Shown here: positions 778-32,338 of the stretch, one piece after another
Layout of the letters: every line of letters starts with the position of its first letter
Position numbering within the stretch: the first letter of the stretch is position 1
NCBI RefSeq assembly: GCF_025998535.1
Contig: NZ_AP024233.1
Location: 2,178,001 to 2,242,000, forward strand
From: Desulfolithobacter dissulfuricans
Lineage (GTDB): Bacteria > Desulfobacterota > Desulfobulbia > Desulfobulbales > Desulfobulbaceae
Direction of reading: 5' to 3'
DNA length: 64,000 nucleotides
Position numbers and translations under genes: made by a program
Notes under the pieces: generated by a model
The model's database searches: none
Told to the model about the DNA's origin: nothing
The model's input: the letters and a program-made list of their open reading frames with translations, nothing else

Positions 778-1371
778 CTACTGCTGACTACTCTGCATGA
801 ACTCCTGCAGAAGGGGATCGGAGGAGATGATGTAGTAGATGACCGCTGGCTCCTGGTCGTCGGCGCCGGCATTGGAAATGGTAATTGAGCTGGCGAACTT
901 GACCGTGGCCAGCACCTTGATGCTGCCGTCTTTCTTGGCAATGTTGAACTGGTCCTCGCTGATCTTGCCGTCCTTGTTCCAGGCCCAGTAGATCATCTTG
1001 TCATGGGCCATGGTGGTGGGCTCGCCAAACCGGTCAAGAAGCTCGACAATCATGGCCTTGACCTCCCCGGAACCGGCTTTTTCATTGCGGTGATACAGGG
1101 CCAGCACGGTGCCGTCCCTTTCTGCCGCTACAACCCCGGTTCCGCCATCCATGAACTTGATGGTGCCCGGGTAGGCGTCTTCCATGGCCGCATCCCTGGC
1201 CTTTTCCATCTGGGCGGCGGTCAGCTTTCTGCCAAGTATATAGTCACCGATGCCAAGACCGAGTCCGGCAACCGTCTCGACCTTTGAGGCAACAGCGCCT
1301 CCGGTGGAAGGCATCAGAAGAAACGAAGTCAACAACAGGGATACGAGACTGATGGTTTTGAAAAATTTCAT
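778..1371 (-). CDS. Exported protein of unknown function
   Basis: A 197-residue protein I do not recognise. Residues 1-26 form a Sec signal peptide: basic MKFFK, a hydrophobic stretch, and a likely cut after the small residues near GGAVA. The mature part has no cysteine or haem motif. It holds a glycine-rich segment (GLGLGIGDYILGR), a segment about regulatory-looking charge (AERDGTVLALYHRNEKAGSG) and a hydrophobic C-terminal part. The start ATG at 1371 has an AAGGAAAG ribosome site. It lies downstream of the hao-type operon but is separated from it by a terminator, so linkage to nitrogen metabolism is only positional. Another terminator follows it. Periplasmic location is inferred from the signal peptide. 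Confidence 0.75.
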   Translation of the reverse strand: MKFFKTISLVSLLLTSFLLMPSTGGAVASKVETVAGLGLGIGDYILGRKLTAAQMEKARDAAMEDAYPGTIKFMDGGTGVVAAERDGTVLALYHRNEKAGSGEVKAMIVELLDRFGEPTTMAHDKMIYWAWNKDGKISEDQFNIAKKDGSIKVLATVKFASSITISNAGADDQEPAVIYYIISSDPLLQEFMQSSQQ

Positions 1372-1468: not shown

Positions 1469-3055
1469 TTACTGCTTATACCGGTCTGCCTGCTCGGCCT
1501 GGATAGCCTTCATGACGTCGGTCCCAAAACCTTCCTGGCGCCACTTGTGCTCGGGCCGGGACAGGATCTCGCCGATGGCCTTCTCGTACTTGGCGGTCAT
1601 GCCATGCTCGGTGGCCAGCTTCATCAGCTCGGGCAGGAACTTGAAGTAGAATACCTCGGCGACATCGTACATTCCATGCCAATGGGTGTAGTCCGGTCCC
1701 TGCATGGCTGCACCGTGCCGGGCGCGCCGTCCCTGATGGTGCCACAGCTCCCACCAGTACCAGCCCAGGTCGGTATGGAAGGTGGAGCCCTTGATCAGGC
1801 CGTCCTTTTTGGCCATACCGTACAGTTTTTTGGCAGGCTTGGCGAATTTTTCGTTGTAGGTCACAACCAGGGCGTCGAACTGCTTGTAGAAGTTATCTAC
1901 CTGCTGCATGCCGTGACAGGACTTGCAGACACCCTTCATGTTGTTACGCCGGTCCTCCCAGGAGATAACCTTCTCGACCTGCTTCTCGGCGCTGATCTTT
2001 TTCCACTTGCCGTTCTCGATAACAAAGGTCTTGTAGGTTGCCTTCTGGCCGGGCTGCGGCGGAATCTCGCCCGGAATGTCAGCCACGGTGCCGTCGGTGA
2101 AGATGGCCCGATTCAGCTTGACAGACACTTTCGGACGCAGGGTCCAGGAAATACGGTCACCAACGTTATGGGTGTTCTGGGCAATGCCGCCATCCAGCTT
2201 CACGTAGGAACCCATGTGACAGGTGGAACAGGTCGGGGCGGTGTAGTAATCCTTACCCAGTACCCAGGTGCCGTTCTTGAGGATGTTCATACCGTTCATA
2301 CCACCCTCACGGACCGCGGAGTAGTAGGCAATACCGTGCTTGGACTCCTCGTAAACCTCTTTCTGCGGATGGTCCGGGCCGAGATGACACTTGCCGCAGT
2401 TCTCCGGCTGACGGGCAACCGAAGAGCGGAAGGAATGCTTGGAATGGCAGGCCATACAGGAACCCTTGGTTCCGTCCGGGTTGAGCCGGCCAATACCGGT
2501 ATTGGGCCAGGTCATGGGATCAAGCATTACAGCCTTGGCTTCGTTCTTGAGCGGCTTGCCGTCCTTGCCCTTGAGTACCTTGACCACGGAACCGTGACAC
2601 TGCCAGCAGCCGTTGGCGGCGTCGGCCTTGTCTTCCATGGAGCAGATAACCTCACCCAGGACGTTGTCCAGGGAAGCCATAATCTGGCCGGCGGTGGCAT
2701 GATGGGAGTTCACCATCTCTTTTACCTCGCGCTCATGGCAGTACCCACAGTCACGCGGCGAGAGAATGGTCTTGATGAAGGCGCCCTCGTGCTCGTAACC
2801 GAGCGCATCACCCTTGTCGGCGGCATGGCAGTTGTAACAGCCGATCTGGCCGTCCTTGGCAGCCGCATGGGGCGAATGCTGCCACTGCTTGACCAGGGAA
2901 CCGTTTTCCTTGAGATGGCAGTTGACGCACTTGACGTTTATTGCCTTTGCTTCCTTGTTCTGGGTATCCTTGGACTGCTCGGTGGTCGCGTATGCGGCGC
3001 CGGCGGCAAAGAGTCCCAGGACAACCATGCAAAATGTTTTTTTCAAATGTTTCAT
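1469..3055 (-). CDS. hao: Octahaem cytochrome c, hydroxylamine oxidoreductase (HAO) family
   Basis: Periplasmic multihaem enzyme of 528 residues. A Sec signal peptide (about 1-23) precedes eight CXXCH haem sites with Cys at about 43, 73, 103, 150, 200, 220, 276 and 377, the count and spread of the HAO family. The C-terminal segment WWELWHHQGRRARHG then GPDYTHWHG (about 434-461) is a family block. In anaerobes such proteins are thought to work in reverse, reducing nitrite or hydroxylamine; no nrfA is in this window. The frame extends 52 codons further upstream, but the ATG at 3055 has an AGGAGG site and directly precedes the signal peptide. It is last in an operon with a tetrahaem cytochrome, ferredoxin and NrfD, under a sigma-54 promoter. 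Octahaem tetrathionate reductase is a less likely alternative. Reaction direction cannot be read from sequence. Confidence 0.88.
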   Translation of the reverse strand: MKHLKKTFCMVVLGLFAAGAAYATTEQSKDTQNKEAKAINVKCVNCHLKENGSLVKQWQHSPHAAAKDGQIGCYNCHAADKGDALGYEHEGAFIKTILSPRDCGYCHEREVKEMVNSHHATAGQIMASLDNVLGEVICSMEDKADAANGCWQCHGSVVKVLKGKDGKPLKNEAKAVMLDPMTWPNTGIGRLNPDGTKGSCMACHSKHSFRSSVARQPENCGKCHLGPDHPQKEVYEESKHGIAYYSAVREGGMNGMNILKNGTWVLGKDYYTAPTCSTCHMGSYVKLDGGIAQNTHNVGDRISWTLRPKVSVKLNRAIFTDGTVADIPGEIPPQPGQKATYKTFVIENGKWKKISAEKQVEKVISWEDRRNNMKGVCKSCHGMQQVDNFYKQFDALVVTYNEKFAKPAKKLYGMAKKDGLIKGSTFHTDLGWYWWELWHHQGRRARHGAAMQGPDYTHWHGMYDVAEVFYFKFLPELMKLATEHGMTAKYEKAIGEILSRPEHKWRQEGFGTDVMKAIQAEQADRYKQ

Positions 3056-3210
3056 ACAGTTTCCTCCTGATATGGAACTTCGTTGGGCAATCCTCTGATG
3101 GACCACCAGGTCCACCTGCAAAGTGTTTTTCTCTGCAGCTTCACCTCCTTTGTCTCTACGTTCAACAACCTCCTTGCAGTTATGTGTCTTTTTTTCTTGA
3201 TTACGGGCCA

Positions 3211-4416
3211 TTATTCCCCTGAGGCGGCGGACCCGGAGACATACGGATCATCTTCCTGCCAGAAGGGGAAAACCTTGCTCAGTATATAGAGAATCACCAG
3301 GGGCAGAACCATGATGATGATGGCCGGCAAAATACCTTCCTTTTCAAGCCACTGGGGCTGAAAGATCACCGAGCCGCGCTCGCTCTTGGACATGAGCTGG
3401 CCGCCGATGACCACGTTCCACCGCATGAGCAGAACCTGGAACAGGATCATCAGGGAGACCACCGGGGCCAGGAACTTGACCAGGCCATCCCCGATCCTGA
3501 AGAGGTTCATGAAGGTCAGGATAAAAAACGGGATCACAGAGAAGATGCCCACCTGCAGGACCCAGAAGCTAATGTACAGCGGTCCCCAGTAAAGTTCGTG
3601 CAGGGCATGCCAGTGATGGGTGGCCATATAGGCATGGGAGAAGAGCTCCAGCATCTCGAAGGTGAAGTCGAGGATGAAAAACCCCCACAGATACTTGATG
3701 CAGGTGCGGATACATTCCAGGTCCACCGGCCTCCCCTTGATCTTCATGATGAACATGTAGGCCACGATGATACCGGCGATACCGGAGACACAGGCAGAGA
3801 GGAGAAAGATTACCGGCATGAGCGGCGTGGCCCACATGGGGTTGGCCTTGACCCCGCCAAAGATAAAACCGACATAACCGTGGAGCACACAGGCCATGGG
3901 GATACCCAATCCGGCGAGGAAGGAGATGATCTTGTGGTCGAGATGCAGGGACCGGGACGACAGGTTGTCGCTCCCGATGCTGAGCACGTTATAGACCGTG
4001 CGCATGAAACCGGTGGCCTGATCCTTGAGCACCACCAGGGTAGGCCGGTAAATGAAGAGGATCTCCAGGATCAGGACAATGGCATAGGCGGAGTAGATGT
4101 ATCCGAACCCGGCCATTGCCGAGGTGGGACTCGGAGTGAGCATCATATTGAAGGCCCGCTCGGGATGACCAAGATGGTTCAGAAGCGGCAGGGTCGCACA
4201 GGCCAGGAAGGCCAGAGCGAAAACCAGGGAAAAGCGGGCAATGGGCTTCAAGGCCTTGACATGGAAGACATGATAGAGCGAGGAGACAATAAAGGCCCCT
4301 GCAACGATCCCGGTGATATAGGGATAGAGAACGATCATCAGGCTCCAGTGCACATGGAGATCGTTGGGAAACGCGTATCCGATGGCGCCGGTGGCCGTTT
4401 CAGCAAGTCCGTGCAT
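3211..4416 (-). CDS. nrfD: NrfD/PsrC-family quinone-interacting membrane subunit
   Basis: Integral membrane protein of 401 residues with about eight to ten hydrophobic helices and the family's early block, in which a glycine-rich helix (YITGIVAGAFIVSSLYHV) is followed by NHLGHPERAFNMM at about residues 79-91. NrfD proteins exchange electrons with the quinone pool and pass them to a ferredoxin-like partner. The ATG at 4416 overlaps the ferredoxin stop by one base (TAATG), so the two are probably translationally coupled, and a GGGAGG site lies just upstream. With the ferredoxin and the tetrahaem cytochrome it is likely to feed menaquinol electrons to the octahaem enzyme encoded next. A 155-base gap separates it from that gene. 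Confidence 0.92.
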   Translation of the reverse strand: MHGLAETATGAIGYAFPNDLHVHWSLMIVLYPYITGIVAGAFIVSSLYHVFHVKALKPIARFSLVFALAFLACATLPLLNHLGHPERAFNMMLTPSPTSAMAGFGYIYSAYAIVLILEILFIYRPTLVVLKDQATGFMRTVYNVLSIGSDNLSSRSLHLDHKIISFLAGLGIPMACVLHGYVGFIFGGVKANPMWATPLMPVIFLLSACVSGIAGIIVAYMFIMKIKGRPVDLECIRTCIKYLWGFFILDFTFEMLELFSHAYMATHHWHALHELYWGPLYISFWVLQVGIFSVIPFFILTFMNLFRIGDGLVKFLAPVVSLMILFQVLLMRWNVVIGGQLMSKSERGSVIFQPQWLEKEGILPAIIIMVLPLVILYILSKVFPFWQEDDPYVSGSAASGE

Positions 4417-5216
4417 TAGACAACCTCCCTTCTCAGGCCCACGTAGTGGAGCGAGGGCTTGTTGCCCATGCCCGGTTTCAGTACAGACACCACGTGTGGC
4501 TGATGCAAAATTTTGTATACTTCCGAATTTCTGTCGTTCACATCACCGAACTTGCGCGCCTGGACCGGGCAGACGTTGACGCAGGCCGGCAGGAGTCCCT
4601 TGCGGACCCGGTGGTAGCACCAGGTACACTTGTCGGCGGTCTTGGTTTTCGGATTGATGAAACGCACTGAGTAGGGACAGGCCTGAACACAATAGGAGCA
4701 GGCCACGCACCGTTTCTGGTCGATCAGGACAAAACCGTCCTTGGTCTGATAGGTGGCCCCCACCGGACAGACCTGGACACAGGACGGCTTTTCACACATG
4801 TTGCAGAGCTTGGGGACAAAAAAGGTATCCCGCACCGGATGGGGAATATCGGTGCGTGGTTTCTGGTAACCGTCCAGCCCACCGTTGGGTGAATCGACAT
4901 AGACATTGTCATGGTCGTCGATCACGTAGCGCTCCACCCAGGTGCGGTAGTTGCCGTCCGGTACCTGGTACTCGTTCTTGTCGGCCACACAGCAGGAGCC
5001 GCAGCCGATACAGCGGGTGATATCGACGATAAAGACGAACTTCTTCCCCTTGATAAAGGGACCTTCCTGCTCCCGCATCCCGGGAATCTGTTCGGGAACG
5101 TCCATGGCCCCAGCAGGAATCACAAGGAGCAGCGACCCGGCGATGGTTCCGCCAAGCACCTTCTTGATAAAGGCCCGCCGGTCCCGGCTTATCTCAGACT
5201 GAATTGCATCCATCAT
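4416..5216 (-). CDS. nrfC: Tat-exported ferredoxin-like subunit with four [4Fe-4S] clusters (NrfC/PsrB type)
   Basis: A 266-residue electron-transfer subunit. The N-terminus has a twin-arginine motif (SRDRRAFIKK) followed by a hydrophobic stretch ending in PAGAMD, so it should be exported folded by Tat. Cysteine groups CIGCGSC, CNMCEKPSCVQVCP, CVACSYCVQACP and CTWCYH with CVNVCP make four cubane clusters. The frame is open for 25 more codons, but the ATG at 5216 is preceded by AGGAGG at a spacing of seven and overlaps the stop of the upstream cytochrome (ATGA), so it is preferred; the next codon is also ATG. It is expected to dock on the periplasmic side of the NrfD protein encoded just downstream. 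Confidence 0.92.
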   Translation of the reverse strand: MMDAIQSEISRDRRAFIKKVLGGTIAGSLLLVIPAGAMDVPEQIPGMREQEGPFIKGKKFVFIVDITRCIGCGSCCVADKNEYQVPDGNYRTWVERYVIDDHDNVYVDSPNGGLDGYQKPRTDIPHPVRDTFFVPKLCNMCEKPSCVQVCPVGATYQTKDGFVLIDQKRCVACSYCVQACPYSVRFINPKTKTADKCTWCYHRVRKGLLPACVNVCPVQARKFGDVNDRNSEVYKILHQPHVVSVLKPGMGNKPSLHYVGLRREVV

Positions 5217-5761
5217 TTGCTTTCCTCCTCGACACCGACAATGGCCCTGGCCTCCAGTACCCACATCATCGGCGAGTGGACATTGTGACACTGGTTACAG
5301 TTATGATCCGTGCGCACATGCTTCTGCTCCAGATGCTCCGGCATGGAAATCATCTTGATGGCCTCTTTGGGCCGGGCCCTGATAATCTTGTTATGACAGC
5401 GCAGACAAAGGGTCTTGATCTCTTCGCCCTGCTTCTTGGGCAGTTTGGCAACGACCTTGCCGTCCTTCACATGATCGGCCACCGGCCCGTGACAGAACTC
5501 GCAGGAAACCGTGCGATGTATGCCCTCGAGATGCATTTCCCGGATATAGGGATGGCAGGAAAGACAGGCGGCGTTGGTGCCGTTGCGGATGGGCCGGTTG
5601 ACCTCGTCCTTGATGGCATCGGCGCGGTAATGGCCATACTTGCCAAAGGACTCGGGAATCACCATGGACCGGACCGTCACACCCACAACAGCGACAACGG
5701 CCAGGACCAGGACAATCCTGATCACATGTGTGTTGTATTTCGACTTATACTCTGGCTGCAC
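5213..5761 (-). CDS. Membrane-anchored tetrahaem cytochrome c (first gene of hao-like operon)
   Basis: A 182-residue protein with one uncleaved N-terminal helix (about 13-31, IRIVLVLAVVAVVGVTV) and four CXXCH sites (CLSCH, CEFCH, CLRCH, CNQCH), so it should be held at the outer face of the membrane. It probably shuttles electrons between the quinol-oxidising ferredoxin/NrfD pair and the octahaem enzyme, the place taken by HaoC/NrfH-type cytochromes in related clusters. The start is GTG at 5761 with a GGGAGG site five bases away. The stop overlaps the ferredoxin start. It is the promoter-proximal gene, with a sigma-54 element about 60 bases upstream. Confidence 0.88.
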   Translation of the reverse strand: MQPEYKSKYNTHVIRIVLVLAVVAVVGVTVRSMVIPESFGKYGHYRADAIKDEVNRPIRNGTNAACLSCHPYIREMHLEGIHRTVSCEFCHGPVADHVKDGKVVAKLPKKQGEEIKTLCLRCHNKIIRARPKEAIKMISMPEHLEQKHVRTDHNCNQCHNVHSPMMWVLEARAIVGVEEESK

Positions 5762-5821: not shown

Positions 5822-5837
5822 AGCAAGCCCTGTTCCA
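5822..5837 (-). promoter_or_regulatory. Sigma-54 (-24/-12) promoter of the hao-like operon
   Basis: Minus strand TGGAACAGGGCTTGCT: GG and GC are 12 bases apart as sigma-54 requires, matching TGGCAC-N5-TTGCW at nearly all informative positions. It lies 61 bases upstream of the GTG start of the tetrahaem cytochrome. It needs an activator ATPase bound upstream, and two palindromic sites are found there. Confidence 0.85.
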
Positions 5838-5889
5838 TATTCTTTTTTTCTTTTTTTTCAACACATTGCAATCCATACCAAATTGGATA

Positions 5890-5938
5890 GTTACCCGCCG
5901 GTAACACAAGGAAGCATATGGCGTTACCGATGGGTAAC
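5890..5938. promoter_or_regulatory. Tandem palindromic activator sites (GTTACC-N4-GGTAAC)
   Basis: Two perfect 16-bp palindromes: GTTACCCGCCGGTAAC at 5890-5905 and GTTACCGATGGGTAAC at 5923-5938. Their centres are 33 bp apart, about three helical turns, so both face the same side of the DNA. The near site starts 53 bp upstream of the sigma-54 element. The same pair with the same spacing is found at 29257-29305 before the nap operon. They are probably sites for an NtrC-type regulator. Confidence 0.82.
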
Positions 5939-6151: not shown

Positions 6152-6508
6152 ATGGCAAAACAATTCAGTTCAAAACGGATGCAGCGCGAGGCCAGAACCG
6201 TGGAGGTGATGATCCGCCGCTATTGTCGGGACAAACATGGGAGTGGTCAGGGGGAGCTATGCGACCAGTGCCAGGAACTGCTTGACTACGCCTATCTGCG
6301 TCTTACGCACTGTCCTTTCCAGGATGGCAAGACAACCTGCGGCAAGTGTCCGGTCCACTGTTACAAGCCGGGAATGAGACAAGAAATCCAGGAAGTCATG
6401 CGATATGTGGGGCCGAAAATGGTGCTCACCAACCCGCTGATGGCCCTGAGCCACGCCTTGGACGGGCTTCGCAGAAAACCGGTCAAACGGCGCTCCTCTG
6501 CTGCTTGA
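6152..6508 (+). CDS. ygbA: YgbA-like nitrosative-stress protein (nitrous oxide-stimulated promoter family)
   Basis: A 118-residue cytoplasmic protein matching the small YgbA family by its layout: basic N-terminus with RTVEVMIRRYC, then LCDQCQELLDYAYLRLTHCPF, a CGKCPVHCY cluster and a C-terminal MRYVGPKM-type helix. The eight or so cysteines suggest metal or Fe-S binding. In enteric bacteria the family is induced by nitric oxide and helps recovery from nitrosative stress; its biochemical role is not settled. It is transcribed away from the hao-like operon across a shared regulatory region, which fits a link to nitrite or NO. A weak GAGGCTGAAG stretch precedes the ATG. Confidence 0.8.
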   Translation: MAKQFSSKRMQREARTVEVMIRRYCRDKHGSGQGELCDQCQELLDYAYLRLTHCPFQDGKTTCGKCPVHCYKPGMRQEIQEVMRYVGPKMVLTNPLMALSHALDGLRRKPVKRRSSAA

Positions 6509-6746
6509 CACTGGTTGGCAAATCCCGTACAGTGTGGCAGATATCGGCCGGACTCCTCTTGGGGTCTGCTGCCGGACTGGTTTTCCCGGGCAGCGCCTTG
6601 GCCCTCACCCGGCCCTGCTGCCTTGACCGTCATGACCGGCTCCTGAAACCGGGGGCCAACTCAAACAAAAGAGTACGCTTCCACAGAGGAGCCCGGAGCT
6701 GCTCCAAGCGGTGGCCCCGGCCTCTGACTTCTGAATTCGGATACAT

Positions 6747-7253
6747 ATGTTTGGCATCGGACTTCCTGAAATGATCGTGATCCTGGCAGTGGCTCTCATC
6801 GTGGTGGGCCCTGACAAGCTGCCGGACCTGGCCCGGTCCCTTGCCAAGGGGGTCTTTGAGCTGAAGAAGACCATGAATGAAGTCAAGGCGAGCCTGACCG
6901 AGGAAAGCGAGGTGCTGGGAGAAGTCCACGGCGAACTGAAAAAAACCACCGCAGAGCTGCAGGAGCAGTTGCTTGACAACGAGACCCAGACCTGGAAACG
7001 CCCTGAACCGGAAACCCCGGAAGCGAACGATCTGGGAGTAATCGACCTTCAGCCGGTGGAACAGCGGCCCTGGGAAGCCGATGCCCTGACACCCCCGCCC
7101 GGCGACGCACCAGTGGAAGAAAAGGTGGGCGTCGACGCGGGAGATCAGCAGGATCCCGATGGTGAACCCGCGGCCACCGAGACTGAAATCGCCGCTGACA
7201 TGCCCCAACACCGCAACAAAGCAGACAAAACCACCCCCGACCAACCTGCATGA
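6747..7253 (+). CDS. tatB: Sec-independent translocase TatB/TatA-type subunit
   Basis: A 168-residue protein with the TatA/B arrangement: a short N-terminal membrane helix (about 2-21) beginning MFGIGLPEMIVI, the hinge GPDKLPDLAR, and an amphipathic helix, then a long acidic, proline-rich tail without predicted fold. The tail and the GIGLPE start favour TatB over TatA. It recruits twin-arginine substrates together with TatC, encoded by the next gene with a four-base ATGA overlap. Likely clients in this window are NapA, NapG, the hao-cluster ferredoxin and the Rieske protein. A tatA gene is not in the window. Confidence 0.88.
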   Translation: MFGIGLPEMIVILAVALIVVGPDKLPDLARSLAKGVFELKKTMNEVKASLTEESEVLGEVHGELKKTTAELQEQLLDNETQTWKRPEPETPEANDLGVIDLQPVEQRPWEADALTPPPGDAPVEEKVGVDAGDQQDPDGEPAATETEIAADMPQHRNKADKTTPDQPA

Positions 7254-7981
7254 TCGCAGCGCTCGAACATTTCGCCCCCCACCACAGAGAGTTGCGCCAG
7301 CGACTGATCCGCTGCTTTCTGGCCATGGGCGTCACCACGGTGATCGCCTATCTCTTCATAGATGAGCTGGCCGGCTTCTGCATGCAGCCCCTCTTTCATG
7401 CCTACCCCGATCTCCAGCGGCTGGTCTATACCAAGCTGACCGAGGCCTTTATCTCCTATCTCAAGCTGTCCTTCATGGTCGGCCTGCTGTTCAGCTCGCC
7501 GGTGATCCTCTATCAGCTGTGGATGTTTGTGGCCCCGGGATTGCTGGATCATGAAAGACGTATCGCCCGCCAGGTCATCATCTGGGCCACCATGCTCTTT
7601 GTCGCCGGCGGGCTGTTCGCCTATTTTGTCGTTCTGCCGCGCACCCTGATCTTTTTCATGAGTTATGCCGGTGACAACCTCCAGCCCATGCCCAAACTGG
7701 GACTCTACCTCACCTTTGTCGCCCGGATGGTCATGGCCTTTGGCATCGCCTTCGAGATTCCCTTTCTCATGGTCATGGCCGACCGGACCGGGCTGGTTCC
7801 CAGGCAGCATTTCAAGGCCAAGCGCAAGTATTTCTACCTGGCCATCGTCGTCCTGTCCTTCCTGCTCACCGCCGGTGACCCGACCGCCACGGTCCTGCTT
7901 GCCTTTCCGCTTTTCGGCCTCTATGAAGCCGGTATCATGGCAGGCAGAGTCTTTGGCAAAAACAGGAAAACGAAAAAGTAA
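7250..7981 (+). CDS. tatC: Sec-independent protein translocase TatC
   Basis: A 243-residue, six-helix membrane protein that binds the twin-arginine signal of folded cargo. Family marks include the N-terminal HHRELRQRL segment, the SYLKLSFMVGLLFSSPVILYQLW block and FEIPFLMVM. The ATG overlaps the tatB stop, so the two are co-translated. The product length is normal for the family. A long inverted repeat follows the stop, between this gene and the convergent TPR-methyltransferase gene. Confidence 0.96.
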   Translation: MIAALEHFAPHHRELRQRLIRCFLAMGVTTVIAYLFIDELAGFCMQPLFHAYPDLQRLVYTKLTEAFISYLKLSFMVGLLFSSPVILYQLWMFVAPGLLDHERRIARQVIIWATMLFVAGGLFAYFVVLPRTLIFFMSYAGDNLQPMPKLGLYLTFVARMVMAFGIAFEIPFLMVMADRTGLVPRQHFKAKRKYFYLAIVVLSFLLTAGDPTATVLLAFPLFGLYEAGIMAGRVFGKNRKTKK

Positions 7982-23510: not shown

Positions 23511-24335
23511 CTATCGCACGCGCCAGGTAAAATCCAGCGCTCCTGGCCGGCAGGAGTCTACACAGGCACCGCAGTTCCAGCAGTAGACAGACCGGCCCTC
23601 ACCAAGACTGGGATTGAGACCAAGGGGACAGGCGTGATCACAGAGACCACACTGGGTGCAGGCCTCCAACTCCTGATGAATGACCAGCCGACGCCGGGAA
23701 CCGATCAGAGCAAGGAGACCGCCCAGAGGACAGAAATAACGGCAGTAGAATCGACGGGTCAGAAGTTCAAGCAGGAGCACTGCCACCAGCACAACCCCCT
23801 CGACCGCCAGTTTATGAAAAAACACCGCCATCATGATCTCGCGGCCCACCAGTCCCGGTGGTGACATGATGACAAAAATCGGCGCCCCCAGGATCATGGT
23901 CAACAGAAACTCGCCGATCAGGGCAAACCACAGAAGTCTTCGGGCCAGGACCAGCCGGTCTTGGAGGCGTTTTTTCCTGGAGATCAACCGTCGCAGCCGG
24001 TCGAGCAGTTCTCCGAAAAAATTGATCGGACAGATCCAGCCGCAGAACACCCGGCCCAGCAGCAGGGCCAGCAGGACAGGCGGCAGCATGCCGATGAGGG
24101 CGGGGAGGTAGAGTTTTTTGGTGACCAGGATACTTTCCAGCCCTTCCAGCGGCGAGACAAACCAGAGCTCGCCGATGCCAAGCGACTGATACCATCCCTG
24201 GACCAGGGTTATGGCTTTATAGTAGTTAAGAAACGGATTGAGCAGGATAACAAGAAAGGCCGCCAATAGAACCGCAAAGCGCAGGGTGTTGTAGCGTCGC
24301 CTGCGGCCCTGCCCATTCCCCCGGTGTTCAGTCAT
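23511..24335 (-). CDS. napH: NapH, quinol-oxidising membrane Fe-S protein of the nitrate reductase system
   Basis: A 274-residue membrane protein with about four helices, cytoplasmic motifs CGWICPINFF and CRYFCPLG, and two C-terminal [4Fe-4S] groups, CTQCGLCDHACPLG and CWNCGACVDSCRPG. In known Nap systems NapH with NapG takes electrons from menaquinol and passes them toward NapC or NapA. Its ATG shares one base with the napG stop (TGATG), so they are coupled. It is the last gene of the napCMADGH run; a 229-bp repeat element follows the stop. Confidence 0.95.
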   Translation of the reverse strand: MTEHRGNGQGRRRRYNTLRFAVLLAAFLVILLNPFLNYYKAITLVQGWYQSLGIGELWFVSPLEGLESILVTKKLYLPALIGMLPPVLLALLLGRVFCGWICPINFFGELLDRLRRLISRKKRLQDRLVLARRLLWFALIGEFLLTMILGAPIFVIMSPPGLVGREIMMAVFFHKLAVEGVVLVAVLLLELLTRRFYCRYFCPLGGLLALIGSRRRLVIHQELEACTQCGLCDHACPLGLNPSLGEGRSVYCWNCGACVDSCRPGALDFTWRVR

Positions 24336-24931
24336 CAGTATTTCACCTTGCCTCCGGAGTACAACGGCTCCACATTGATCCCCTTCCGACCGTCAACACT
24401 GGTCACCGGGCAGGCATGGGTGCAGAGACCGCAGCCCGTACAGTCCGTTTCGTCCACCACCGGTTTCAGGGCCTCCAACCGGATCGCCCTGTTCTTGAAA
24501 GGACATTTGTCATAACAGGTCCGGCACAGTGCCCTACCGTTCCAGGCCGCACAGATAAATTGGTTGATGACCGCAAGTCCCATTCGGGTTTCGGCCATTT
24601 CCACCCGCTGCAGGGTTCCTGTGGGACACACATCCACACATTTCATGCAGAGATAGCAGGGGATTTTCTCCACCGCAATCAAGGGCGTTCCCGCATGGAG
24701 TCCATGACGGATATCCAGCAACTCGATACAGTGATAGGGGCAGACCTCCACGCAGCGGCCGCAGCGTAGACATTTGCCGGCAAAAATCTCTTCCGGTACC
24801 GCCCCCGGAGGCCGCAGTCTGTTGGTGGTGACCGGTGAGCGTACCAGGGCGGCGGAGGTCTCAGCGCTGCTGGAGACCAGCGCGGTGACCGTCACCGCGC
24901 CGGCCAGCTTGAGAAAACCTCGGCGTTTCAC
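24335..24931 (-). CDS. napG: NapG, periplasmic ferredoxin-type subunit
   Basis: A 198-residue Tat-exported protein (RRGFLKLAG twin-arginine motif at the start) with four [4Fe-4S] clusters: CLRCGRCVEVCPYHC, CYLCMKCVDVCPTG, CAAWNGRALCRTCYDKCPF and CTGCGLCTHACPV. It works with NapH as a quinol dehydrogenase for periplasmic nitrate reduction. The ATG overlaps the napD stop by four bases, and its own stop overlaps napH, so D, G and H are tightly coupled. Confidence 0.95.
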   Translation of the reverse strand: MKRRGFLKLAGAVTVTALVSSSAETSAALVRSPVTTNRLRPPGAVPEEIFAGKCLRCGRCVEVCPYHCIELLDIRHGLHAGTPLIAVEKIPCYLCMKCVDVCPTGTLQRVEMAETRMGLAVINQFICAAWNGRALCRTCYDKCPFKNRAIRLEALKPVVDETDCTGCGLCTHACPVTSVDGRKGINVEPLYSGGKVKY

Positions 24932-25236
24932 ATGCCTTGCCCCTTTTCATCCCGTCGGCGGCCAAATATCTGCGGCACATACTCGCCCCGGGCGATTTTT
25001 TCGGCTTCATCCTCGGTGTTAAGATAGGTCAGGCCGACACTGAGCACGGTTTCCATCTTCTCGATGTCCCGCATCAGCTTTTCCATGGCATCGGTGGTCC
25101 TGCTCTCCAGCACGACCACGATATTGCCCTTGTCATCGGCTCCATAGACCTCGACCTGGCTCATCCGGTGCAGCGCCTCCAGGGTCTGATCCCGGTCTTC
25201 CGGCCATGTCGATATCACCACTCCACCAATAGGCAT
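24928..25236 (-). CDS. napD: NapD, chaperone for NapA maturation
   Basis: A 102-residue cytoplasmic protein of the NapD family, which binds the NapA twin-arginine signal until the molybdenum cofactor is in place. The family opening GGVVISTWPED with alternating strands is clear, and VYGADDKGNIVVVLE matches the ferredoxin-like fold of NapD. The open frame continues 69 codons upstream without family likeness; the ATG at 25236 with AAGGA eight bases before it is the start used here. A 273-base gap separates it from napA, containing a GGGGGG/CCCCCC hairpin at about 25474-25496 that could stabilise or attenuate the message. Confidence 0.92.
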   Translation of the reverse strand: MPIGGVVISTWPEDRDQTLEALHRMSQVEVYGADDKGNIVVVLESRTTDAMEKLMRDIEKMETVLSVGLTYLNTEDEAEKIARGEYVPQIFGRRRDEKGQGM

Positions 25237-25509
25237 AATCAGTCCTTTGCTAAGATCAGCCGTCCCCGGCCATCCGGCCTTGAAGGGACAGCAGAAAAAC
25301 ACAACCCTGTGACTGCATAACCCTCTCCAGAACCCGAATTTCCGGAACCGGATACCGTCTGCACCGATCTTCGGAAGAGGCAACAAACAGGTAAGAAGGA
25401 GAAGTCCGCGCTTTTGGCAGGAAAGCGGCAAACATATCGACACTCCGGTATCCGGTCCCGGAAATCCGGGATGGGGGGCGGTTTTCCACCCCCCGTACTA
25501 TGGAGGTAG

Positions 25510-27897
25510 TTACACAATCAGTGGTTTCAAGGGCACAGGCCCGGAAACACGTTTCACTTTGACCGCACAGATCTTGAACTCGGGTTCCTTGGAGCCGGGA
25601 TCAATGGCATCCTTGGTCACCTTGTTGATCATCCGTTCCGGGTGCTGATCGTGCCAGTAGACAAAGACCATACCTTCGATGGGCCCTTCGTACACCTTGG
25701 CCGGCAGAACATTCACCCCGCGGCGGGAACGAACCTCAACCATGTCGCCAGGCTTGATGCCAAGCTTTTTCGCATCGTTCGGGTTGATCTCCACGTAGGC
25801 ATAGGGATTGGCTCTCAGCAGCTCGGGTACCCGACCGGTCATGGACATGGTATGCCAGTGGTCGATGATCCGTCCGGTGGAAAGATAGAACGGATATTCG
25901 GCATCCGGCATCTCCTCGGGATCCGCCTGCGGCCGCAGCCAGACCCACAATTTCCGGTCCTTGTGGGCCGGTCCGTAGAACTGGTAGGGCAGGTCACTGG
26001 TAGCCTCGCTGTCGGCCATGGGATCCATACCACGGACGAATTTTTTGACGGTACCGCCCTTGAGCGCATGCGCTCTGGTCGGGGCCGGCCACTGAACACC
26101 ATCGTACATCTGTTCCAGGACCTCGTAGGTGGCCCCCTGCAGGTCATTGTCGCGGCCCTTGGTCAGCTTCTGGGTATATTCGTTCCAGATGGCCCTGGGA
26201 AGCTCGTAGCCCTCCTCCAGGCCGTCAAAGGGCTTGACGCACTGGGCAATGACCGGATCGTTCAGCTTGCTGGCCAGTTTCTTGGCCCATTCACGGACGA
26301 TCCATACCTCGGGTTTGGCGTCGCCAGGCGGGTCAATGGCCTTCCTGGTCAGCTGGGAGCGCCTTTCCGTGCAGCCATAGACCCCGGTCTTCTCGAAATG
26401 AAAAGCCGTGGGCAGAATCAGGTTGGCGTACTCTGTGGTCCGGGTTGGGAAAATATCCGAGCAGACGATGAAGACATCCTCACGGGCCAGTCCCTTGTTG
26501 TATAGATTGCAGTTGGGTAGACTCTGGGCAGGGGAGGTGCAGTTGATCCAGATCGCCTTGATTTTGCCGGCATTGACGGCCGAGAACATGGCCATGGTAT
26601 GATAGCCGGGCTTGGGCGGAATCCGTCCCTTGGGAATACCCCAGGCCTCCTCCACCTGGTTACGCAGTTTTTCCTTCTTGACCAGCCGGTGACCGGGCAG
26701 AATATGGCACAGACCACCGCCTTCACGGACACCGCCGCAGGCGTTGGGCTGACCGGTGAGCGACAGAGAGTCGGCACCGGGCTTGAGCAGCTGGCCGGTG
26801 AGGATATGGAGATTATGGATCAGGTTGTTGGCCCATACCCCTCTTTTGCGCTGGTTGATACCCATGGTCCACAGGGAAACCGTACCCTTGGAGGTGGCGA
26901 ACCAGCGGGCGACTTCGCGGATATCATCGGCTGTCACCTTGCCGCCCATGATGCGGGCGGCCTTTTCCGGCGGATAATCGGCGACAAATTTTTTATACTC
27001 ATCAAAAGAAACTTCCTTTTTCTCCTTCCCCTTACGGAAGGTAGCGTAGGTGGAGAAAAAGGACTGGTCATAGAGTTTTTCCTCGATAATCACGTACGCC
27101 ATGGCATTGAGCAGGGCCAAGTCGGTACCCGGTTTGAACTGCAGGTGCTTGTCGGCGATTCTCGAGGTCTGCGACAGGCGCGGATCGGCGTTGATCACCT
27201 TGACCTCGGGATTGTCGAGTTTACGGCGCATGATCCGGCGAAAGAGGACCGGATGGGCCTCGGCGGTATTGGAACCAATAATGAAGAAGCAGTACGCCTT
27301 TTCCAGGTCGTCATAACCGCCGATGGGCTCATCGGCCCCGAACGAGGTCAGGTAACCACCCACGGCCGAAGCCATGCACAACCGCGGATTGCCCTCCACG
27401 TTGTTGGTCTGCAGCCCGCCCCGCATCACCTTCTGGAACAGGTAGGTCTCTTCAGTCAAAGCCTGGCCTGAACCGTAATAGGCCACGGAATCGTTACCAT
27501 GGGCGGTGACAGCTTCGGCGAATTTGCTCGCCGCGATATCCAGGGCCTTGTCCCAGGATATCTCGCGGAAGGTACCGGTTTTTTTCTCGCGGTACAGTGG
27601 TCTGGTCAAGCGGTCGGCATGGCGCATGCATTTCCAGAAATGCATGCCCTTCATGCACACATAGCCAAAATTGGTCCGTGCCTGGGGCACACCGCGTAAC
27701 CCGACCGGCTGACCGTTTTTCACTCCCAGTTCAACCCGGCAACCCACCCCGCAAAGCCTGCAGGAACCGCGATGCCACCGAATGCCTTCTTCGGCCCGGG
27801 CTACGGAATTCTTGTCCAAAGGCAGGTTCATCCCCACATACGAAGCAGCGGAAAGAGCTGCTGTTTTCTTGAGAAAATCTCTTCTTGTCTGAGCCAT
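25510..27897 (-). CDS. napA: Periplasmic nitrate reductase catalytic subunit NapA
   Basis: A 795-residue molybdenum enzyme reducing nitrate to nitrite in the periplasm. A Tat signal (TRRDFLKK, residues 4-11) leads; a [4Fe-4S] cluster is held by Cys 46, 49, 53 and 81 (CRLCGVGC and GYVCMKG); the Mo ligand is Cys174 in PRLCMASAV. Length and motifs fit the monomeric Nap of Desulfovibrio rather than assimilatory Nas, which lacks a Tat signal. A formate dehydrogenase would have selenocysteine or Cys in a different setting. The ATG has AGGAGG nine bases upstream. Partners NapC and NapM lie upstream and NapDGH downstream; no napB is present. Confidence 0.95.
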   Translation of the reverse strand: MAQTRRDFLKKTAALSAASYVGMNLPLDKNSVARAEEGIRWHRGSCRLCGVGCRVELGVKNGQPVGLRGVPQARTNFGYVCMKGMHFWKCMRHADRLTRPLYREKKTGTFREISWDKALDIAASKFAEAVTAHGNDSVAYYGSGQALTEETYLFQKVMRGGLQTNNVEGNPRLCMASAVGGYLTSFGADEPIGGYDDLEKAYCFFIIGSNTAEAHPVLFRRIMRRKLDNPEVKVINADPRLSQTSRIADKHLQFKPGTDLALLNAMAYVIIEEKLYDQSFFSTYATFRKGKEKKEVSFDEYKKFVADYPPEKAARIMGGKVTADDIREVARWFATSKGTVSLWTMGINQRKRGVWANNLIHNLHILTGQLLKPGADSLSLTGQPNACGGVREGGGLCHILPGHRLVKKEKLRNQVEEAWGIPKGRIPPKPGYHTMAMFSAVNAGKIKAIWINCTSPAQSLPNCNLYNKGLAREDVFIVCSDIFPTRTTEYANLILPTAFHFEKTGVYGCTERRSQLTRKAIDPPGDAKPEVWIVREWAKKLASKLNDPVIAQCVKPFDGLEEGYELPRAIWNEYTQKLTKGRDNDLQGATYEVLEQMYDGVQWPAPTRAHALKGGTVKKFVRGMDPMADSEATSDLPYQFYGPAHKDRKLWVWLRPQADPEEMPDAEYPFYLSTGRIIDHWHTMSMTGRVPELLRANPYAYVEINPNDAKKLGIKPGDMVEVRSRRGVNVLPAKVYEGPIEGMVFVYWHDQHPERMINKVTKDAIDPGSKEPEFKICAVKVKRVSGPVPLKPLIV

Positions 27898-27942
27898 GAA
27901 TATTGTCCTCCTTACAAACTGTCTGAGCGTGATTGGCTGCTC

Positions 27943-28311
27943 TTATCTGGTCTTGAACGCATGCGGACTGTGGCATTTCCAGCAGTCTTTATCCTTGGGA
28001 CATTTCTCCAGCATCTTGGCATGGCAGACCGCACAGTCCTCTCTGGATGGCGTCAGACGGAATGTTTCAAAGGTTCCATGGCACTGGTAGCATTTCACCA
28101 TGGCGATGCCATGGGCTGAACCATACCACTCCTTGTAGACATCGGGTGTTGCCTCCTGATGACAGTCAGCGCAGGCAACATACATCTCCTCCTCACTCAG
28201 CTCTGGATGACCATTGACCGATTTGTCTCCTGCTGCCCCGGGGGATGCACCCCAGACCATCATGGCAAGAAACACCATGACACAACACGTCACGAACATT
28301 TGTCTCTTCAC
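27943..28311 (-). CDS. napM: NapM-like tetrahaem cytochrome c
   Basis: A 122-residue periplasmic cytochrome with a Sec signal peptide (about 1-27) and four haem sites (CADCH, CYQCH, CAVCH, CWKCH). Its place between napC and napA is that of NapM in the Desulfovibrio desulfuricans napCMADGH operon, where it replaces NapB as electron donor to NapA. The start is GTG at 28311, with AGGAGG six bases before it. About 180 bases separate it from napC. Confidence 0.9.
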   Translation of the reverse strand: MKRQMFVTCCVMVFLAMMVWGASPGAAGDKSVNGHPELSEEEMYVACADCHQEATPDVYKEWYGSAHGIAMVKCYQCHGTFETFRLTPSREDCAVCHAKMLEKCPKDKDCWKCHSPHAFKTR

Positions 28312-28489
28312 GGTTCACCTCCTGAAGATTTTCTTCTTCCGGGCAGCCCCTCCCTTGGTCTTACGCCCGTTTCCTGGCTTATAGGCAGAGGCGGTGATTC
28401 CTACCGGCATGACAGGAAGCACTGACGACTCTGCACAAAAGTTCGAACCTGAACTGAGTGATTTTCAAATGGTTCCCCGCAGGGGATGC

Positions 28490-29059
28490 TCAACCTCCTT
28501 TGTGCAAATAAAAAAACTTCTCTGCCGAACTGAGCCCGTTCCGGTGCCCGACCCTGGGATGACATCCGGTGCAGCTGCTCTCCTGGCGACCGGCCAGGTA
28601 CTCCCGATGGGCCTGGACGCCTGCTTCGGATAACCCAGGCGGCTCAAGTTCCCCGTGACAATCCATGCATCCTGAATCATGAACGAAACGGTTGCGGTTC
28701 TCCCGGGCATTGCCGGCCCAGTCATAATTCCTGCCCTCGATGAAGAGATTATTCACTGCCATCCGTACACCGGAGGTAATCTTGCTCTCCAGGAAAGACA
28801 GCAGGTTGTCGTGGGGCAGATGACACTGATTGCAGTGGGCCACACTACCTGTCCGGTTCTGCCCGCCATGCACATCCTCCTGCCAGGACATCACAAAAGG
28901 TTTCATGACATGACAGCTCCCGCAAAAGGAGGCCCGGTTACCCAGATCAAAGACAAAGCCCGAGGACATCACAACAACCACACCGGCGACCAGGGCCCAG
29001 ACAAGCAAACAAACCAGGGTTCCTGTCAGATGGTTCTTCTCCCCTTCTTCACACTGCAC
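28490..29059 (-). CDS. napC: NapC/NirT-type membrane-anchored tetrahaem cytochrome c
   Basis: A 189-residue quinol dehydrogenase. One N-terminal helix (about 12-33) anchors it, and four haem sites follow: CGSCH, CNQCH, CMDCH and CTGCH. The CGSCH-VMKPF and VAHCNQCHLPHD segments are NapC/NrfH family marks. It takes electrons from menaquinol and passes them to NapM or NapA. The start is GTG at 29059 with AGGGAGA upstream. It is the first gene of the operon, about 120 bases after a sigma-54 promoter with two upstream activator sites. Confidence 0.93.
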   Translation of the reverse strand: MQCEEGEKNHLTGTLVCLLVWALVAGVVVVMSSGFVFDLGNRASFCGSCHVMKPFVMSWQEDVHGGQNRTGSVAHCNQCHLPHDNLLSFLESKITSGVRMAVNNLFIEGRNYDWAGNARENRNRFVHDSGCMDCHGELEPPGLSEAGVQAHREYLAGRQESSCTGCHPRVGHRNGLSSAEKFFYLHKGG

Positions 29060-29188: not shown

Positions 29189-29204
29189 AGCAAAGAGCAT
29201 TCCA
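29189..29204 (-). promoter_or_regulatory. Sigma-54 promoter of the nap operon
   Basis: Minus strand TGGAATGCTCTTTGCT, with GG and GC 12 bases apart, matches the -24/-12 consensus. It lies 130 bases before the napC start. Its near activator site begins exactly 53 bp upstream, the same distance as in the hao-like operon. Confidence 0.85.
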
Positions 29205-29256
29205 GTTTAATAACTTGTGAATTTCACATAGATATTCGCTGCCGCCAGGGCGCACC

Positions 29257-29305
29257 ATTACCAGCAGGTAACAGTCATGGCATAGAAATGATACCGCCAG
29301 GTAAC
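29257..29305. promoter_or_regulatory. Tandem palindromic activator sites before the nap operon
   Basis: ATTACCAGCAGGTAAC (29257-29272) and GATACCGCCAGGTAAC (29290-29305), two slightly imperfect copies of GTTACC-N4-GGTAAC with centres 33 bp apart. The layout equals that at 5890-5938. The sites also lie 40-90 bases before a plausible promoter of the divergent kinase gene, so the regulator could influence its own expression. Confidence 0.82.
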
Positions 29306-29396: not shown

Positions 29397-30989
29397 ATGC
29401 GAAAAATATCCATGAGACTTCGATCTAAATTCATCCTGGCCATCGGCGCCATTCTGGCGGCGTCCTACGGTCTGCTGTTGGTTTATACCTCCATCCTTCA
29501 GAACAGACTGGTTATCGGCCAGGCCCGCCAGGAGGCCCGGATGCTGCGCCAGCAGATTCTCCTGACCAGACAATGGGTGGCGGATCACAGGGGCCTGTTC
29601 ATCGTCAAGACAAAGAAGGACCATGCCAACCCCTTCCTGCCCGATCCCATACTGCAGACCAGGGACGGAACCATCCTCGTCAAGAGAAATCCCGCCATGG
29701 TCACCCGTGAATTATCCGAATATGCCAGTCGATCTGGCTTCTGCTGGTTCAGGGTCACCAGCCTCAGGCCGATCAATCCGGCCAATGCGCCCGATCCCTT
29801 TGAGCGTTCCAGCCTCCAGTTGCTTGAGGAAGGCGTTCCGGAGATTATCAAGATCATAGAGGGAGACAATGGCCGGATCCTGCGCTACGTGACCCCACTG
29901 CAGGTCAAGTCATCCTGCCTTTCCTGCCATGCGGAACAAGGCTACAGGATCGGCGACATCCGGGGGGCCCTGTCCATCTCCATCCCCATCAACTGGGCCG
30001 ACGAGGCCATCAGGCATAACAACCAGTCAATTATCATCTTCGGCCTGTTATCGGTCTGCTCGGTGGCCATGGTGCTCTACCTGCTGTTCAACAACCTGGT
30101 CGCCAGACCCATCAATCAACTGGCCGATGCCATGGATGATTTCCCCGAAAAAGACCCGGATACATTCAAGCTGCCGGACACCAACGATGAAATCGGTTTC
30201 CTGTCCCGCCGGTTTGTCAATCTCTGCGAACGCCATAAACGGTCCCAGGAGGCCCTGGAACAGGCCAGAAAACAGGCCTTCCGCAGCGAAAAGCTGGCTG
30301 CCCTTGGCCAGCTGACCGCGGGTATTGCCCACGAGATCAACAATCCCCTGGGCGGGATGCTCAACTGTATCCGCACCATCCGCGAGGAACCGGACAACCG
30401 GGAGCTGCACGACCGCTACCTGCCGCTCATCGACAAGGGGTTGCACCGGATCGAACACACCATGCGCCAGCTTCTCAACTACGGGCGAAGCGAACCGCTG
30501 CAGCTCATGCGGGCCAGCATTGACGAAATTATCCGGGAATGCCTGGAACTGCTTGAATACAAGCTGAAAAACATAAACGTGGAACTGGACCTCCAACTCG
30601 ATGAAGCCTACTGCATTGACACCGAGGCTGCCAAACAGATTGTCATGAACATCTGTCTCAACGCCATCCAGGCCATGCGCGACGGGGGCACCCTGAAGAT
30701 CACCACCTACCGGACCGACGACGACCTGGTTCTGGTCTTCACCGATACCGGTTCCGGTATCCCGGGAGAAATCATTGACAAGATCTTTGATCCCTTTTTC
30801 ACCACCAAGGAGGTAGGCGAGGGTACCGGGCTTGGGCTGGCGGTCACCGACTCCCTGGTCCAGCAGCTTGGCGGCCATATCGAGGTGGAATCCGAGCCGG
30901 GCCGCGGCAGCCGGTTTATCATCTATCTACCCATCAAACTGTCCTGCCCACGTCCGGGAGAACACCAATCCAAGTCCCAGGAAACATAA
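29397..30989 (+). CDS. Membrane sensor kinase with periplasmic haem-c (DUF3365/Tll0287-like) domain
   Basis: A 530-residue histidine kinase. Membrane helices at about 12-33 and 211-232 enclose a periplasmic domain with a single CLSCH site (about 174-178) in the VKSSCLSCHAEQGYRIGDIRGALS block typical of DUF3365 sensors, which hold haem c. Then come HAMP, DHp with AGIAHEINNPLGGM (acceptor about His319) and an ATPase domain with DTGSGIPG and GTGLGLAV. It is transcribed away from nap and followed after three bases by its response regulator. The haem could sense redox state, nitric oxide or nitrite; which one cannot be read from sequence. The nap and hao-like operons, which share activator sites, are the likely targets. 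Confidence 0.9.
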   Translation: MRKISMRLRSKFILAIGAILAASYGLLLVYTSILQNRLVIGQARQEARMLRQQILLTRQWVADHRGLFIVKTKKDHANPFLPDPILQTRDGTILVKRNPAMVTRELSEYASRSGFCWFRVTSLRPINPANAPDPFERSSLQLLEEGVPEIIKIIEGDNGRILRYVTPLQVKSSCLSCHAEQGYRIGDIRGALSISIPINWADEAIRHNNQSIIIFGLLSVCSVAMVLYLLFNNLVARPINQLADAMDDFPEKDPDTFKLPDTNDEIGFLSRRFVNLCERHKRSQEALEQARKQAFRSEKLAALGQLTAGIAHEINNPLGGMLNCIRTIREEPDNRELHDRYLPLIDKGLHRIEHTMRQLLNYGRSEPLQLMRASIDEIIRECLELLEYKLKNINVELDLQLDEAYCIDTEAAKQIVMNICLNAIQAMRDGGTLKITTYRTDDDLVLVFTDTGSGIPGEIIDKIFDPFFTTKEVGEGTGLGLAVTDSLVQQLGGHIEVESEPGRGSRFIIYLPIKLSCPRPGEHQSKSQET

Positions 30990-30992: not shown

Positions 30993-32338
30993 ATGCCGAG
31001 AATACTGCTTGCCGAAGATGATGAAATAATGCGTATCACGGTGGAGGACCGGCTGCGCCGGGAAAACTGGACCGTGGATGCCGTGGACGATGGCCTGAAG
31101 GCCAAGAAATGCCTTGAACACAACAACTACCACCTGGTGCTCTCGGATATCCGCATGCCCGGACTTTCCGGGGTGGAACTGCTGGAACAGGTGCGCCAGC
31201 TGACCCCGCCCCGGATATTATCATGATGACAGCCTATGGCAGCGTGGATGATGCGGTCAGCTGCATGAAAAAAGGGGCCGTGGATTACATCCTCAAGCCG
31301 TTCAACATGGATGACCTGGTGATCCGCATCAAGCGGGTCCTGGAAATGCAGTCGGTCAAGGCAAAATGTGCCTCTCTGGAAGAGCACTGCCTCCTCACCC
31401 AGAAGCACATCATCGGCGAAAGCCCGGCAATCAAGAAGGTCTACAGGATAATCAGTCAGGTGGCGCCTACCGACTCTACAGTGCTGGTTACCGGTGAGTC
31501 AGGTACGGGCAAGGAGCTGGCCGCGGCTGCGATCCATCGCTCCAGTACCCGGGCCACTAAACCCTATGTCCGGATCAACTGCGCGGCCATCCCGGAAGGA
31601 TTGATCGAATCCGAGCTCTTTGGCCACGAACGGGGGGCCTTCACCGGCGCCCACAGCAGAAAACCGGGCAAATTCGAACTGGCGGATGGAGGGACACTGC
31701 TGCTCGATGAAATCGGTGACCTGCCCCTGCCGCTGCAGGCCAAACTGCTCAGAGTGATCCAGGAGGGTGAGTGTGAGCGGGTGGGCGGCACCAGGACCAT
31801 CAAGGTGGATGTGCGGCTCATATGTGCCACGGCCAAGGATCTCGGTGTGGAAGTGAAGGAGGGCCGGTTCCGGGAGGATCTTTATTACCGCCTCCGGGTG
31901 ATTCCGGTGACCATGCCGCCCCTGCGCGAGCGGCGGGAAGATATCCCCATCCTTATCGACCATTTCCTGGCGGAATTCAGCCAGAAACGGGGGATAACCC
32001 TGAAGCTGTCTCCAGAGGCCATGGCCTGCATGCTGGAGTATGATTTCCCCGGCAATGTCCGGGAACTGAAAAACATCATCGAACGGGCCTCTGTCCTGGC
32101 CCCGAACCCGGTGATAACTCCAGCGGACCTGCCGGCGGACCTGCATTCAGGCGATGACGTCGCGGAGTCGTTCGAGGGGCCGGTTATCCTCAGTGAGGCC
32201 CTGGCCCAGACGGAAAAACGATGTCTTTTAAGTGCGCTGGCCCGTACCGGCGGTAACCGGACAAAGGCTGCCGAGTTGCTCGGCATCAGCAGGAAAAATC
32301 TGTGGGAAAAGATGAAACATTACGAAATCACCCTCTGA
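30993..32338 (+). pseudogene. NtrC-type sigma-54 response regulator, frameshifted inside the receiver
   Basis: Two frames, 30993-31226 and 31223-32338, together encode one regulator of about 448 residues. The first has LLAEDDE and phospho-Asp in LVLSDIRMPGLSG; the second continues with MMTAYGSVDDAV and the KPF receiver end, then AAA+ with GESGTGKE, the sigma-54 contact loop GAFTGA and GGTLLLDEIGD, and a Fis-type HTH (GGNRTKAAELLGISRKNLWEK). One extra C in the CCCC run at 31209-31212 would restore PPPDIIMMTAYG. So it may be intact in the cell. It follows the haem-c kinase and is the best candidate to bind the GTTACC-N4-GGTAAC sites before nap and hao. If the shift is real, the second frame could still yield a receiver-less activator. 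Confidence 0.85.

Follow-up and report, generated by a model that had tools for sequence, protein, structure and literature searches.

A shared sigma-54 promoter layout before hao-like octahaem and nap operons points to a nitrate-to-ammonium regulon in the Desulfobulbales

The hao-like octahaem operon and the nap operon of Desulfolithobacter dissulfuricans lie in one 64,000-nucleotide stretch of DNA, referred to here as the window, and each is preceded by a -24/-12 element and two palindromes. The question raised by this locus is whether both are complete sigma-54 promoters belonging to one regulon and, if so, which regulator controls it. The initial annotation had described the two operons as sharing base-for-base the same sigma-54 promoter and operator layout. 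The elements are listed below; both sites are read on the minus strand.

5823..5837, minus strand: sigma-54 -24/-12 element of the hao-like (octahaem) operon, TGG-N10-GC, TGGAACAGGGCTTGC
5856..5868, minus strand: IHF-like site of the hao-like promoter, 1 mismatch to YAANNNNTTGATW, read from the sequence
5890..5905: proximal operator palindrome GTTACC-N4-GGTAAC of the hao-like operon, 0 mismatches, 53 bp from the TGG
5923..5938: distal operator palindrome of the hao-like operon, 0 mismatches, 33 bp from the proximal one
29190..29204, minus strand: sigma-54 -24/-12 element of the nap operon, TGG-N10-GC, TGGAATGCTCTTTGC
29257..29272: proximal operator palindrome of the nap operon, 1 mismatch
29290..29305: distal operator palindrome of the nap operon, 1 mismatch

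The arrangement is exact to the base at both operons, with 53 bp from the TGG to the proximal palindrome and a palindrome spacing of 33 bp. The spacers are identical at only 1 of 17 and 18 of 52 bases and are therefore unrelated, not copies of each other, so that 'base-for-base' is true of the layout and not of the sequence. A lone palindrome at 3 mismatches has 16 matches in the window against 14.45 expected, which is not significant. No claim is therefore built on single sites, and the evidence comes from the pairs and the composite of pair and -24/-12 element. The nap spacer (window 29204-29256) contains an inverted repeat, TGTGAAATTCACA, that is possibly a site for a Crp/Fnr-type regulator. 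Compared with what we take to be the HcpR motif, this HcpR-like repeat has its half-sites closer together.

In the 3.6-Mb genome to which the window belongs (G000), the palindrome is found with no more than 1 mismatch in 10 places, these being the four sites above and six singletons, against 2 in the reversed control. When pairs are sought with a loose pattern (spacing of 22-52 allowed), only the hao-like and nap loci match. One of the singletons is part of a weaker third composite at G000:C1:1122429, found by a whole-composite scoring model trained on other families, where it scores 31.8. Its spacing is 33 and its gap 54, the palindromes have 1 and 2 mismatches, and AGG replaces TGG.

L273 7430-13776 (G000:C1:1122429 on): third composite, from the composite model, and canonical NapA operon

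This promoter precedes a NapD-like ORF (Pfam NapD 26.8 bits, below the cut-off of 28). The operon behind it encodes a NapA that passes the NCBI NapA cut-offs, then a NapB-family cytochrome, with another cytochrome, an iron-sulphur protein and an NrfD-family protein as further genes. Relatives of this NapA (77-90% identity) follow strict composites in L107, L118 and L237. With this weaker promoter ahead of a canonical nap operon, three or more operons probably belong to the regulon in the source genome, and the earlier proposal of a two-operon regulon is probably too narrow. A second octahaem cytochrome of this genome, about 45% identical (L274 6246-7589; G000:C1, about 1282 kb), has no composite above score 10 within the 14 kb examined, and no match to NrfA was found in the genome. 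Genes resembling this paralogue (41-42%) are present in L126, L027 and L238, each with a composite just upstream.

Among the 73 genomes of the family, the loose pair pattern identified 23 pairs in 16 genomes, against 5 in the reversed control, and the spacing is 31-35 in every pair though 22-52 was allowed. A gene-blind search for a pair plus TGG-N10-GC in 257 genomes of the order identified 61 places in 46 genomes, against 1 in the reversed control, spread over 7 of the order's 15 families. All 61 have a spacing of 31-35 (29-37 allowed) and 59 have a gap of 51-57, measured to the best-scoring TGG-N10-GC within the 42-64 bp allowed. Their sigma-54 elements carry consensus bases beyond those searched for. 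These narrow ranges bear out the earlier suggestion that the geometry is under selection. Of 395 genomes sampled across the phylum, none of the 379 outside the order has the composite; of the 16 inside the order only the source genome matched, the other 15 having none. The composite is far beyond chance. With just two sites visible in the window, chance or simple duplication of one promoter might have accounted for them, however the unrelated spacers, the order-wide counts and the phylum null rule out both, leaving this explanation with next to no probability.

Weaker composites were scored with a relaxed model whose training set was composites from other families. The null for this model, from 20 first-order Markov resamples per locus at 20 loci, has a largest score of -2.9, and a real-DNA background of 80 named kinase loci has two scores above 20 (L027 and L091). 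Composites over a score of 40 number 73 as listed, one of which is a duplicate (L257), leaving the 72 used below. The loci L253-L272 were picked by gene and are outside the gene-blind count of 61. For 20 family loci picked by gene, some of them cut by contig ends, 6 score at least 41, 3 score 2.8-11.2 and 11 are below zero. The composite-like site at L091 13607-13724, in a betaproteobacterial MAG, scores 32.5 and was set aside as probable background; it precedes an ORF that by eye resembles a porin, and a sigma-54 regulator ORF lies some 1.4 kb off. At L027 5281-9944 (MAG Modern_marine.mb.199), a degenerate composite with a score of 38 is flanked by octahaem (42%), kinase (52%) and regulator (61%) genes.

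The genes of the two window operons and the neighbours of the hao-like promoter are as follows.

778..1371, minus strand: protein without a Pfam match, next after the octahaem gene in many relatives
1469..3211, minus strand: hao-like octahaem cytochrome, 8 CxxCH, no CxxCK
3211..4416, minus strand: NrfD-like membrane subunit
4416..5291, minus strand: NrfC-like iron-sulphur protein
5213..5761, minus strand: tetrahaem cytochrome, first gene of the octahaem operon
6152..7981, plus strand: divergent YgbA-TatA-TatC genes, neighbours of the promoter slot in relatives
23511..29059, minus strand: nap operon, with NapC/NrfH-like tetrahaem, NapM-like cytochrome, NapA, NapD, NapG-like and NapH-like genes

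The best solved-structure match of the octahaem cytochrome by sequence is 4qo5, over residues 120-356 (E 2e-42), with hydroxylamine oxidoreductases next. NapA of the window operon is below the NCBI NapA cut-offs. On the minus strand, at 34568-35896 and 36659-37987 (window 34469-36859 and on), lie two ORFs of equal length for group II intron reverse transcriptase/maturases, 2091 bp apart, with a repeat that is at least 99% identical over the 300 nt listed.

One of the 61 places is the hao pair of the window read as its mirror image, which leaves 60 distinct operator pairs. Of these, 53 lie ahead of a hao-like octahaem, nrfHA/nrfA, nap or other multihaem operon. The octahaem class has 21 places. 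The nrfA/nrfHA class has 15, in 14 genomes (L243 and L246 by 29-33% identity only), and the nap class 12, of which three are the canonical NapA operon and L111 and L119 are placed by a NapD-like match alone. Other cytochromes with 7-8 haem motifs account for 5, and the remainder are 1 before the regulator gene, 2 at contig ends and 4 without a recognised gene. With the window's own three places left out, 51 of 58 stand before N-oxide reductase or multihaem operons. Scanning the genome and its relatives gave no large set of such sites before unrelated genes, the 4 of 61 without a recognised gene being the exceptions, and the sites are present at relatives' hao-like and nap operons. The regulon had been described as one for nitrate and nitrite/hydroxylamine reduction; the 53 of 60 pairs uphold nitrate and nitrite, while for the octahaem enzyme hydroxylamine is just one candidate substrate among others. 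Two successive composites are found in one nap region, before NapD and before NapM-NapA, in L123 (9746-9861 and 10505-10620) and L261 (8107-8222 and 8521-8637).

Strict promoters of the octahaem-operon and nrfA classes do not occur together in any one genome among the 61 places, and four octahaem-promoter genomes carry an nrfA gene (G070, G096, G098 and G128). In the family, octahaem orthologues are found in 16 genomes and NrfA in 26, with G070 as the only overlap. The start of the octahaem operon is on a contig in 13 of these 16 genomes, contigs ending first in G007, G009 and G011, and a composite is present at all 13. Eight of these are strict, and five have degenerate palindromes recovered with the model (G004, G012, G013, G044 and G065). 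G041 has its operon start on one contig and its octahaem gene on another. In G031, G034, G017, G022, G032 and G033, nrfA/nrfHA lies beside YgbA and TatA, which is the slot of the octahaem operon here. This slot is also kept in genomes that have neither the regulator nor the composite, such as G025, G026, G027 and G030, and is therefore not by itself evidence for the regulator.

The IHF consensus is YAANNNNTTGATW. A sequence with no more than 1 mismatch to it lies between the proximal palindrome and the -24 in 22 of the 72 composites, against a mean of 6.8 and a largest value of 15 in 200 resampling rounds. Twenty of these 22 are 21-24 bp past the operator and in a single orientation. The nap promoter of the window, as read from its sequence, has a poor IHF match at best and no clear site.

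Kinase and sigma-54 response regulator genes are divergent from nap, and this adjacent pair had been named as the natural candidate controller.

29397..30989, plus strand: sensor histidine kinase, Tll0287-like (c-haem Cache) sensor, CxxCH at residue 174
30993..31226, plus strand: response-regulator receiver, first part, where the frame stops
31223..32338, plus strand: rest of the response regulator in another frame, with receiver end, AAA+ with GAFTGA, and Fis-type HTH

Regulator orthologues, judged throughout by similarity only and not by trees, are present in 105 of the 257 genomes of the order; identity is at least 58% in 103 and 53-54% in the other two. They are found in 42 of the 46 genomes with the promoter, against 63 of the 211 without it (Fisher p about 5e-15, uncorrected for kinship), so that 63 of the 105 regulator-bearing genomes are without a strict promoter. 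A kinase or regulator gene lies within 4.5 kb upstream of 29 of the 72 composites. A small comparison within the family covers 18 of its 26 nrfA genomes, leaving out G003, G031, G034, G018, G023, G024, G035 and G070. Eight of these have the regulator, and with G021 and G067 removed (contig ends beside nrfH) six are readable. The composite precedes nrfHA in five (G017, G022, G029, G032 and G033) and not in G066, which has the regulator and nrfA. Among the ten without the regulator it is found in one, G038, where it is degenerate with a poor sigma-54 element; this is 1 of 8 if G028 and G036, with little upstream DNA, are removed. The co-occurrence and the nrfHA comparison favour the candidate named earlier, and the adjacent regulator is probably the controller. 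The segment of its recognition helix is near-invariant in 42 orthologues. Related regulators have similar letters there, however, so this is not proof of specificity.

The architecture could be real and still answer to another sigma-54 activator, the adjacent pair having a different job. The source genome has at least 27 related AAA+ regulators, this one included, and another could therefore bind. Promoters are also found without a detected orthologue in G034, a genome selected by the pattern search, where a strict one stands before nrfHA, in G120 and G143, and by the relaxed model in G004 and G013, while G031 has a fragment of the regulator. Several of these exception genomes are fragmented assemblies, although G013 is 97% complete. 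The frame break of the adjacent regulator would also fit a different controller. The co-occurrence across the order, the closeness of a kinase or regulator gene to so many composites, and nrfHA mostly lacking the composite where the orthologue is absent all argue the other way, making control by another activator distinctly improbable. The frame break itself, which is absent from the initial annotation, offers a further explanation that is unlikely but deserves rather more weight: the break may be real and the regulon uncoupled from the kinase, with the activator either lost or restarted at the ATG at 31223 as a receiver-truncated, possibly constitutive protein. The two frames do meet within the receiver, with the expected phosphorylation-site segment in the first part and the AAA+ and HTH in the second, and the ATG of the second ORF overlaps the stop of the first. 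Both parts are nevertheless 64-77% identical to four relatives, as conserved as intact relatives predict. No decay is therefore visible, and the break is either recent or an assembly error. Open frames of some 440 aa or longer are the rule for orthologues among the matches listed; the exceptions are G010 with 411 aa, G031, whose fragment of 344 aa lies where a contig begins, and G232, whose match is interrupted by one TAG. The eight G000 paralogues among the matches listed have open frames of at least 454 aa, and the loss or gain of one base in assembling a C-rich stretch would be the simpler account.

Control by the neighbouring kinase-regulator pair stands as the preferred reading, and the domains of the kinase bear on its signal. 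A Tll0287-like domain (PF11845) with CxxCH is fused to HisKA and HATPase. The CxxCH is kept in all 38 related kinases that cover it, three further matches falling short of it, and 20 of the 38 have a Cys, a putative haem ligand, at residue 116. Searching the 395-genome phylum sample with the kinase (E 1e-70) gave only three matches outside the order, at 33-34% identity, with no composite in the short stretches examined. The c-haem Cache (Tll0287) sensor makes NO or nitrite plausible candidates for the signal. Of the two proteins described in the available part of a 2026 preprint, the one of signalling type held NO stably like a sensor and the stand-alone one did not (PMC12889525). The stand-alone Tll0287-type protein behaved in a redox-like manner in the same source, which could point to redox state as the signal, and nitrate could be proposed because nap, a nitrate-consuming operon, is among the targets. 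Nitrate or redox state in place of NO or nitrite is a doubtful alternative, if one to be taken seriously, given that the only signalling-type protein covered in the available part of PMC12889525 held NO stably, and that the CxxCH is kept throughout the 38 kinases and the Cys at residue 116 in 20 of them.

The original paper on NrfR reportedly appeared in J. Bacteriol. in 2015. In the passages available, NrfS-NrfR of Desulfovibrio is described as regulating nrfHA, and probably nap, in the manner of a sigma-54-dependent two-component system (PMC5701242, PMC12285233, PMC4641369). It shares with the system proposed here both this kind of control and its targets, nitrite reductase and nap (PMC5701242, PMC12285233, in the parts available), and nrfHA and nap are both behind sigma-54 composites in the order. 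The 16-bp motif of NrfR is said, in the available part of PMC6456213, to be very similar to LurR sites such as GTCCGCTTTTCAAGAC. Taking the NrfR motif from this description, the operator GTTACC-N4-GGTAAC is unlike the LurR-type sites of that paper, and the rigid two-site layout and the octahaem targets are absent from the available passages on NrfS-NrfR. Traits of NtrC-type sigma-54 systems are present in the form of the GG-N10-GC -24/-12 at the target promoters, with AGG for TGG at the third, and of the AAA+ (GAFTGA) and HTH of the regulator, whose receiver is split over two frames in the source genome.

The sensor domain PF11845 with CxxCH links the window kinase to the sCache_heme (DUF3365/Tll0287) sensor kinases, for which the available main text of PMC12889525 gives no nitrate/nitrite regulon, the words nitrite and nitrate occurring 0 times. 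The window octahaem protein is like the HAO-like octahaem cytochromes, as its 4qo5 match indicates, and differs from the CXXCK octahaem nitrite reductases, as described in the available part of PMC12285233, in that all eight motifs are CxxCH. It lacks the CXXCK active-site haem of the ammonifying octahaem nitrite reductases, which does not exclude nitrite reduction. In Desulfurivibrio, Nap and octahaem proteins are reported as up under nitrate (PMC12142623) and nap as expressed with nitrate (PMC5516251). These operons for DNRA are alike in combining Nap and octahaem proteins, and the parts of both papers available give no promoter or operator. No description of this regulon was found in the open-access literature searched. 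As far as the literature searched shows, the principle is known from Desulfovibrio NrfS-NrfR, and the operator code, the rigid layout and the octahaem targets are new.

The architecture, its conservation, its target genes and its co-occurrence with the regulator are established at the level of sequence statistics, and the idea of a regulon is strongly supported by them. The reading favoured here, with a probability of about 0.78, is that both sites are full sigma-54 promoters of one nitrate-to-ammonium regulon under the neighbouring kinase-regulator pair. The membrane kinase would detect an N-oxide, either NO from nitrite or nitrite itself, with its periplasmic c-haem Cache sensor, and would phosphorylate the neighbouring NtrC-type regulator. 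Dimers of the regulator would sit on the two palindromes, which at 33 bp apart, or about three helical turns, would be on one DNA face, some 85-120 bp ahead of the transcription start. IHF probably bends the DNA in between, a role suggested by the IHF-like sites, and the AAA+ domain would open sigma-54 polymerase at the -24/-12. We infer that the regulator binds the palindromes and that it activates rather than represses. The regulon would in this way couple nap to the nitrite reductase of the lineage, be it nrfHA, the hao-like octahaem operon or other octahaem enzymes.

A broader reading is put forward tentatively, as one with rather more chance of failing than of holding. It takes one promoter code to define the nitrate-to-ammonium regulon of the order, with non-homologous nitrite reductases swapped in place behind it, nrfA/nrfHA occupying the octahaem slot beside YgbA-TatA-TatC in G031, G034 and relatives, and the code being read through a c-haem NO-sensing kinase. 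Were this true, the uncharacterised octahaem cytochromes behind the code would be nitrite, NO or hydroxylamine reductases, and the source organism would be a natural receiver-broken variant.

The code groups HAO-like octahaem cytochromes without CXXCK, which are not known to have an assigned role in such bacteria, with nap, in the slot that nrfHA holds in relatives; this makes a role in nitrite reduction testable and predicts more members. It also suggests how respiration genes could be linked to a c-haem sensor whose family reportedly binds NO, and may serve as a genome-level test of which bacteria are likely to induce nitrate-to-ammonium respiration.
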